A stretch of DNA of 32,287 nucleotides from Candidatus Mediterraneibacter merdipullorum (lineage in GTDB: Bacteria; Bacillota; Clostridia; Lachnospirales; Lachnospiraceae): positions 1-32,287 of the forward strand of contig DXAL01000003.1 of assembly GCA_019117125.1 (NCBI GenBank), written 5' to 3'. This document shows positions 25,585 through 29,515 of the stretch, piece after piece (the first letter of the stretch is position 1; each line of letters opens with the position of its first letter). Both the position numbers and the translations under genes were made by a program. The notes under the pieces were generated by a model. It ran no database searches. It had not been told where the DNA came from and was given only the letters and a program-made list of their open reading frames with translations.

Positions 25585-25870
25585 TAAAGTCCAAAAGCAA
25601 AGGCTGTGACGGAGACAGTAGGTCCTACCCGAACATCCCAGCGAGCCGGGGGATGGTGCGAGCCCGGCATCAGTAGAGTATTACCGAAGATCACTCCCGA
25701 GCTGCAGTCCCGAAGGGGCGTCGGATATGCACGGCGAGAGTAGGGGCTGACGTGAGTTCCCGCGTTAGGGGAATCCGTATGAAAGGCGCATATGCGCCGG
25801 AGTATGCAGTAACAGGTGGTTGAAACGAGAGAGATGGCTTTCGTCCTTTTACGGACGGAAGCCTTTTTTT
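25585..25870 (+). ncRNA. Isoleucine T-box leader
   Basis: Stem I features are present: GTGACGGAGACAGTAGG, the distal loops AGCGA and GGATGGTGCGA, and the 3' strand GAAGATCACTCCCGAGC. There ATC (25690-25692) sits in the specifier position, an Ile codon matching the ileS gene downstream. The T-box loop AGGTGGTTGAAACGAG carries TGGT (25817-25820), complementary to the ACCA end of tRNA-Ile; its 3' half departs from the usual GGTACCGCG. The terminator is GGCTTTCGTCC / GGACGGAAGCC (25836-25863) plus a T-run. Uncharged tRNA-Ile would favour the antiterminator and raise ileS expression. Confidence 0.9.
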
Positions 25871-25898
25871 CTGCCGGTTTGGAAAAGTATCATATTCA

Positions 25899-26040
25899 GA
25901 GGCTGAGTGAACTATGCATCCGTTGCGGACGCGCTTTCGCTCGGGCCGTAACGCAGCGGACACATAAGGCTGCAAAGAACGCAGCCTAAGTGCCGGCGTT
26001 ACTCTACGGTCCTTAACGAATACATAGTTCACTCAATCTC
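25899..26040 (+). repeat. Structured repeat element, copy A (142 bp)
   Basis: The outer arms 25899-25916 and 26023-26040 pair over 18 bases (inner 13 perfect, TGAGTGAACTATG). Inside, 26 bases from each edge, lies a 90-bp core (25925-26014). It has an AACGC/GCGTT stem and an apical hairpin GGCTGC-AAAGAAC-GCAGCC. The core is 80% identical, ungapped, to the reverse complement of copy B. It lies in the transcribed leader between the T-box terminator and ileS. I do not recognise the family. Confidence 0.8.
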
Positions 26041-26172
26041 ATCCAATCCGCTACGGTTTCCAAACAGGCAGGAAAAAAGGGCTTCCACATTCCGTGAAAG
26101 ACGGAAAGTGCTCTGTTATCAGGAACAGAAGACCCCGCCTCTCCCCGTTTTGAATGAAGTTCCGTTCTGGAG
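26041..26172. other. Spacer between the two structured repeats
   Basis: It holds no gene. Its first 60-70 bases resemble, in inverted orientation, the T-box terminator region 25836-25885: TTTCCAAAC, GGCAGGAAAAAA and GGGCTTCC mirror GGAAGCC-T7-CTGCCGGTTTGGAAA. A small hairpin CTGTT/AACAG follows near 26112-26127. Confidence 0.5.
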
Positions 26173-26314
26173 CGGCCCTGCGCGGCGATGTGTCGACGAA
26201 GGACCGTAAAAGAACGCCGGCACTTAAAGCGCGTATTTTGCGCTTTTATGTGTCCGCTGCGTTCTGTCCCGAGCGAGAGCGTGTCCGCCGGCGATATATC
26301 GCCGCGCAGGACCG
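26173..26314 (-). repeat. Structured repeat element, copy B (142 bp, inverted)
   Basis: It has the same 142-bp length and 26-base margins as copy A, in opposite orientation. The outer arms 26177-26189 and 26298-26310 are a perfect 13-bp pair (CCTGCGCGGCGAT), extended to 23 bases with three G-U or mismatch positions. The outer arm sequence is unrelated to that of copy A although the core (26199-26288) is conserved. The apical hairpin is AAGCGC-AAAATAC-GCGCTT (element orientation), differing from copy A by compensatory changes. It ends about 8 bases before the ileS ribosome site. Confidence 0.8.

Positions 26315-26335: not shown

Positions 26336-29515
<3,180 letters not shown>

Follow-up and report, generated by a model that had tools for sequence, protein, structure and literature searches.

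We analyzed a 32,287-nt stretch of DNA from Candidatus Mediterraneibacter merdipullorum (referred to here as the window), which is contig C7 of a draft genome of 2.3 Mb that is 94% complete. Two inverted copies of a structured element, A and B, lie between a T-box leader and an ORF that, from its protein sequence, we take to be the isoleucyl-tRNA synthetase gene ileS. The features of this region are given below together with matches to R2, a covariance model built from an alignment of 58 diverse cores of the element (A5); R2 is broader than R1, the model built from the four copies in the same genome.

25597..25851, plus: ileS T-box leader (RF00230, 71.7 bits, E 2.3e-15); context only, outside the element
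25862..25885: outer inverted-repeat arm beyond A, corresponding to the T-box terminator tail; 92% complementary to 26057..26080
25899..26040, minus (putative RNA-sense strand): copy A of the element, defined by arms, fold, and covariance models
25899-25930/26009-26040: arms of A, 32 nt each
25925..26014, minus: conserved 90-nt core of A (R2 match 25919-26020, minus, 103 bits)
25933..25940, minus: mini-hairpin of A, GC-GAAA-GC, with a GNRA loop (sequence; A5 columns 87-94 and 88-93)
26057..26080: partner arm beyond A, the start of an inverted terminator-like copy (minus-strand terminator-like match 26100-26082)
26173..26314, plus (putative RNA-sense strand): copy B, immediately upstream of the ileS start, defined by arms, fold, and covariance models
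26173-26204/26283-26314: arms of B, 32 nt each
26199..26288, plus: conserved 90-nt core of B (R2 match 26193-26294, plus, 101.5 bits)
26273..26280, plus: mini-hairpin of B, GC-GAGA-GC, with a GNRA loop (sequence; A5 alignment)
26336..29515, plus: presumed ileS (ORF; matches in 58/58 genomes of the genus); context

Along the plus strand, the T-box leader is followed by a terminator, A (minus), a minus-strand terminator-like hairpin, B (plus), and ileS, and the sole promoter-like site between 25400 and 26400 is upstream of the T-box. This clear ileS leader scores under the RF00230 gathering score (71.7 vs. 93). The draft also contains another ileS, truncated by the end of its contig (G000 C16:1-1314); its C-terminal 438 aa are 95% identical, and it reflects either a duplication or a mixed bin. 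Elsewhere in the window, positions 2721-2822 match the pemK RNA (RF02913) with 43.1 bits vs. a gathering score of 34.8.

Alignment confirmed the first-pass annotation in that A and B are inverted copies whose cores are 72/90 identical (80%) without gaps, and the compensatory pairs it described are visible there: the apical hairpin contains four double changes, and a further two adjoin the AACGC/GCGTT stem. Both copies end in 32-nt arms that are self-complementary, as had been proposed, with 81% complementarity; calling the arms unrelated in sequence was a slight overstatement, since by eye they keep a loose ATRTRTC-like stretch across orthologues. The sequence has no U tract after the arms of A or B, and a Rho-independent terminator was rejected on this ground. 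The proposed length of 142 bp fits B, as the 22 B copies at ileS are without a palindromic flank (scores 6-10 vs. a scrambled mean of 7.8), and is too short for A, as palindromy goes on outward of the 142 nt around 18 A copies at ileS (flank scores of 14-28, compared with a mean of 7.5, an sd of 1.3, and a maximum of 14 for 180 scrambled flanks), the two lowest-scoring flanks tying with the best scramble (14). By eye, the extension of A takes in the tail of the T-box terminator together with a second, inverted copy of this tail. Such outward growth would be expected of template switching at a palindrome.

The element is a nested palindrome. Its core of ~90 nt comprises an apical hairpin, a long stem, conserved internal loops, and a GNRA mini-hairpin that looks to be seated in a three-way junction. 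The core is closed by arms that change quickly in sequence while their complementarity is kept. Some genomes have additional nested inverted repeats outside the arms, ending in terminal repeats; some copies also carry structured inserts within internal loops. Compared with 200 dinucleotide shuffles, none of which folded as well, z-scores were -7.99 for B (plus) and -9.43 for A (minus), with folding energies of -80.9 and -76.4 kcal/mol and weaker values for the opposite strands (-77.2 and -66.7, respectively).

Covariation exceeds that seen with shuffles and with slid partners. Across the four copies in the own genome, 97.7% of cells are paired and 27/44 pairs changed on both sides (shuffled mean, 12.1; slid partners, 5-8). 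In A5, 89.9% of cells are paired, 32/34 pairs show both-side changes (shuffled, 68.4% paired and 23.6 pairs; slid, 36-46% and 17-20 pairs), and double-change cells number 472 vs. 140 in the control; the A5 rows are R1-placed copies picked for diversity, which tilts these counts toward structure, and the shuffles do not model relatedness. The two mini-hairpin column pairs of A5, 87-94 and 88-93, are paired in 58/58 rows with 2 and 5 double changes, respectively, and the loop fits GNRA by eye. Both this loop and the unpaired loops are conserved over many genera. RNAalifold, applied to a MAFFT alignment of A5 with no structure given, recovered the core helices and the mini-hairpin as well as two pairs compatible with the three-way junction, and it did not return the six arm pairs.

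Searching the own genome with the A core (blastn) yielded four full copies, i.e., A, B, one on C50, and one in an interval (L003) that, from reading the locus, we presume to lie between nrdG and the leuS T-box. R1 found the same four, and R2 added four partial matches (apical hairpin alone) and two weak ones. As proposed from the initial inspection, relatives were searched with covariance models, and this uncovered many further copies whose substitutions keep the stems paired. Within the genus, where 61 candidates were scored per genome, R1 matched 44 of the 58 Mediterraneibacter genomes, with 1 to 47 matches per carrier, and 14/58 were without a match. At the family level (one genome per genus), 102/299 genomes matched; since 12 candidates were scored per genome, these copy numbers are minima. 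R2 matched 34/295 genomes of the order and 13/391 of the class, of which 32 and 12, respectively, belong to the own family, leaving three weak matches outside it (E 7.5e-6 to 5e-4). When named genomes were scanned with a sequence pattern, 71 stretches were obtained, the majority in records titled Lachnospiraceae or a genus of that family, Mediterraneibacter species included. The element is spread through Lachnospiraceae and occurs almost nowhere else in class Clostridia. At one locus of genome G167 (L201, on C21), it is present in three tandem copies with a period of 187 bp.

In line with the earlier impression of an unrecognised element, Rfam contained no match inside A or B at E values up to 1, and five other loci searched at gathering thresholds gave no match for element copies and only a tRNA in L214. 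A known Rfam RNA family was ruled out on the grounds that no covariance model matched. Our searches of the PMC literature returned no description of this element family, which, within Rfam and the literature searched, is apparently undescribed. We also ruled out a phage or plasmid origin for lack of matches: neither B nor one G223 unit had a blastn match in phages or plasmids, and no viral contig matched any of three exact core patterns, both being searches that could miss diverged copies. A scan of viral contigs for the terminal repeat gave 43 stretches with a single match each.

The element has no fixed orientation to neighboring genes. In its own frame, the flanking gene directions of 120 copies (L058-L157) were -/- in 39, +/+ in 26, -/+ in 20, and +/- in 16, with one or both sides missing in 19. 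A conserved partner gene was rejected after 558 ORFs from the vicinity of copies had been clustered: the top 25 clusters by size were orthologous ileS neighbors, common transporters, other household genes, and thyA/folA. None of these 25 stood out as a protein carried by the element. The presumed thyA/folA cluster, named from reading the proteins, lies near copies at three loci, and thyA/folA-like genes, so named on the same basis, accompany copies in several genomes (L059, L101, L144, and L188). Candidate 'master' loci in four low-copy genomes showed no recognisable partner (ORFs listed for one). ORFs of at least 90 aa overlap 36/120 copies.

We compared 30 ileS loci, the best-matching of 58 genomes, and read 12 of them in detail. 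Both A and B are present at 17 loci, B alone at 5, A alone at 1, and neither at 7. B is half-deleted in L180 and L183, where its 3' part remains, and L178 retains a 3' remnant; no trace of the element is found upstream of ileS in L174, L181, and L184, and L173, also among the seven, cannot be judged because only coding sequence lies upstream. T-box leaders are still recognisable by eye at the element-less loci read, and the element has been lost at ileS without loss of ileS. Since species lacking the pair keep ileS and, by eye, the T-box, the A/B pair is probably a vertically inherited passenger. Regulation of ileS as the main role was rejected, given that A is antisense to ileS and that some relatives lack A or B or have it half-deleted.

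Evidence for mobility comes from other genomes. In G223 and G167 (other genera), the core is the center of a ~260-bp palindrome with ends of type GGTGTCAAAAGCCC (0 matches for the reversed-pattern control). Among 30 places in these genomes, taken from paired ends and model matches, 23 have a pair of ends spaced by more than 200 bp, 2 have a shorter spacing, and 5 are without a pair. Terminal inverted repeats are thus a feature of the G223/G167 units and are not established for A or B. Target duplications, scored as exact direct repeats of at least 7 bp (flank-swapped control, 8/506), flank 12/15 full copies in G223 and 0/8 in G167; all those found are 8-9 bp, and none was noticed around A or B. 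The core is present in all 15 G223 units, and the other 14 are at least 86.6% identical to the L204 core. By eye, bidirectional-terminator hairpins contain or adjoin several of the G223 insertions (L202, L203, and L205). Near-identical copies occur at different loci. The arms accompany the core in the S4_Bin4 and S32_Bin7 bins and in G052, where the outer repeats are of other types; indeed, the outer repeats differ from genome to genome. A separate palindrome at L003 691-855 has the ends TAACAGTTCAGC/GCTGAACTGTTA, and similar ends flank some S4_Bin4 copies. In the places listed for G223 and G167, we saw by eye no terminal-repeat pair at the distance of an insertion sequence (IS), and PF00872, the sole transposase profile run, was absent from both genomes (2/2).

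It had been suggested from the sequence of A and B that arm mismatches are mostly G·U when B is read on plus and A on minus, hinting at the RNA strand. This hint was borne out at orthologous loci, as the arms of 40 in-place copies at ileS (22 B and 18 A), each read on its own strand, contain 42 G·U, 1 A·C, and 8 other mismatches. The bias is alike in A and B despite their opposite orientation, and counting once per position and type gives 16 G·U vs. 1 A·C (29 distinct arm pairs). A wider arm set (66 non-redundant of 154 copies), restricted to copies of 112-130 nt that have the GNRA motif and do not touch a contig edge, contains 71 G·U, 31 A·C, and 99 other mismatches. The loci found by a core DNA pattern that is blind to the arms, with copies then placed by R1, account for 37 G·U, 12 A·C, and 44 other (29 non-redundant of 71 copies), and the remaining copies for 50, 23, and 79, respectively (48 non-redundant of 83). 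Other mismatches outnumber G·U in all three wider sets (99/71, 44/37, and 79/50). A version with a strict anchor pattern, which excluded 50/178 matches and is narrower than the 154-copy set, gave 50 G·U vs. 17 A·C (53 non-redundant copies).

The core shows no such excess in A5, where helices P2 and P3 hold 13 G·U vs. 20 A·C of 1154 cells; in the ileS copies, the same helices hold 9 G·U vs. 9 A·C, with P3 alone at 8 vs. 0. Among the closest ileS relatives (22 non-independent arm comparisons, aligned ileS identity of at least 93%), the arms differ by 60 double changes, 22 single G·U changes, and 2 single breaking changes. The ileS genes of L162/L163 and L160/L161 are ~97% identical, yet 4-7 double changes separate their 16 arm pairs, whereas L158 and L160, with ileS 92% identical, have nearly the same arms; leader recombination is therefore likely to contribute at ileS as well.

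Given that A and B are oppositely oriented, a bias tied to the element's own direction cannot be due to replication or to transcription of ileS, and because both copies share it, one particular strand appears to fold, as RNA or as single-stranded DNA. The strand-specific signal is no proof of RNA, since folded single-stranded DNA would leave the same signal. The first-pass annotation also saw selection on structure, and many copies do keep their stems paired; compensatory change alone, however, does not prove RNA selection, because core G·U does not exceed A·C, double changes outnumber single ones even among close relatives, and template switching can make such changes. The missing G·U excess in the core suggests either that the core tolerates Watson-Crick pairs only or that template switching repairs it fast.

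By their descriptions, the nearest known kinds appear to be MITEs and the bcr repeats. REP/BIME palindromes are intergenic too, and BIMEs are inverted pairs of palindromes, as with A and B. REPs, however, measure 20-40 bp (PMC3733652), whereas our element has a 90-nt core that folds into a branched structure. The attC sites of integrons are likewise structured and act as single-stranded DNA (PMC8632094), but in our element the conserved sequence lies inside and the variable arms outside, and no cassette array was noticed. The stem-loop catalogue in PMC2267715 includes families in Clostridium perfringens and C. tetani. bcr1-bcr18 of the Bacillus cereus group are also dispersed intergenic repeats, approximately half of whose copies are transcribed; as characterised in PMC3446304, bcr1-bcr3 are MITE-like and bcr10/bcr18 have a conserved secondary structure, i.e., these are different families, whereas both traits occur here in one element. 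The bcr repeats belong to another lineage and were compared by description, not sequence. MITEs, such as QMITE2 of Coxiella, are under 500 bp and non-coding and have inverted repeats, direct target repeats (7-9 bp for QMITE2), and a stable transcript fold (PMC10969869). Our element is below that size limit (142 nt in the window, ~260 bp in G223) and without coding capacity, and it has terminal repeats in other genera; unlike in MITEs, the conserved part is central, the arms covary, the outer repeats vary by genome, and no parent IS was found.

Taken together, our data lean toward A and B being copies of a small, non-coding, MITE-like mobile family of Lachnospiraceae whose folded strand is functional. 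This reading is supported by the covarying structure, the high copy number, the spread, the G223 duplications, the deletions at ileS, and the G·U tolerance of the arms. Against it stand the lack of a transposase with matching ends in the places examined, the duplication-free G167, the varying outer repeats, the surplus of other mismatches over G·U in the wider arm sets, the location of the sole promoter-like site upstream of the T-box, and the core without a G·U excess, which RNA selection alone would not predict. The first-pass annotation offered a structured RNA or a mobile palindrome, and there is evidence for both, the two options not being exclusive. We envisage that a transposase acting in trans would move the double-stranded form, that the B-plus/A-minus strand would function in its folded form, most likely as an RNA whose synthesis starts in the element or reads across it, and that selection on this strand would keep the arms paired, aided by template switching at the palindrome, which may cause part of the compensation. 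In view of the elaborate loops, the folded strand probably functions as RNA rather than single-stranded DNA. We suggest, more tentatively, that the selected unit could be the folded single strand, with a conserved branched RNA or single-stranded DNA core, freely exchangeable covarying arms, a transposase in trans, and a dedicated Lachnospiraceae protein or ribonucleoprotein as its reader.

Three other explanations seem unlikely to us, and we take them in descending order of probability. The element could be structural DNA only, a functionless dispersed palindrome in which template switching homogenises and lengthens the arms, so that compensation would be mutational and not selected. Template switching is a known source of compensatory change, described for RNA genes (PMC8794818), and such an origin would suit the few G·U and A·C intermediates in the core (13 and 20 of 1154 cells), the preponderance of double changes among the closest ileS relatives (60 vs. 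22 G·U and 2 breaks), and the extension of the A palindrome across the T-box terminator; it does not, however, predict a 42:1 G·U:A·C bias in both orientations or the conservation of unpaired loops and the GNRA loop over many genera. Folded single-stranded DNA as the functional form, recognised by a protein during movement as with attC or IS200/IS605-like ends, comes next. It would account for the mobility seen in the G223 duplications, strand-specific G·T tolerance in the arms, and the lack of a fixed orientation to genes, and the GCGAAAGC mini-hairpin is very stable as DNA too. The target duplications nevertheless point to a double-strand (DDE-type) transposase, and no shared neighbor gene appeared among the 25 largest clusters. 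Those duplications also speak against the last and most doubtful of the three, a host regulatory or housekeeping RNA family, acting in cis or trans, spread by duplication and serving neighboring genes. Strong covariation with strand bias and the A/B pair at 17/30 ileS loci would fit such a family, whereas its absence, half-deletion, or single occurrence at ileS in other species, the lack of a consistent neighbor gene (among the clusters seen) or orientation, and match counts that run from 1 to 47 among the carriers of a single genus, with 14/58 genomes lacking a match, would not.

With as many as 47 matches in a single genome, the element is abundant in one of the major gut bacterial families, and it is not in Rfam. 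It provides a natural test of how pairing is maintained in palindromes, as its oppositely oriented orthologous copies separate one-strand selection from replication effects and its core and arms differ in behavior. A binding partner should exist if the folded strand is RNA. In addition, short tandem or single hairpins with the apical motif only are present in the own genome (L260, L262, and L263 on G000 C19 and C39; L261 on C37), where they adjoin apparent tRNA genes. They have the form ACTTAGCG...CGCTTACGT and TTAGCGAGG...CGAGCTTA and match R2 at model positions 28-61 only.
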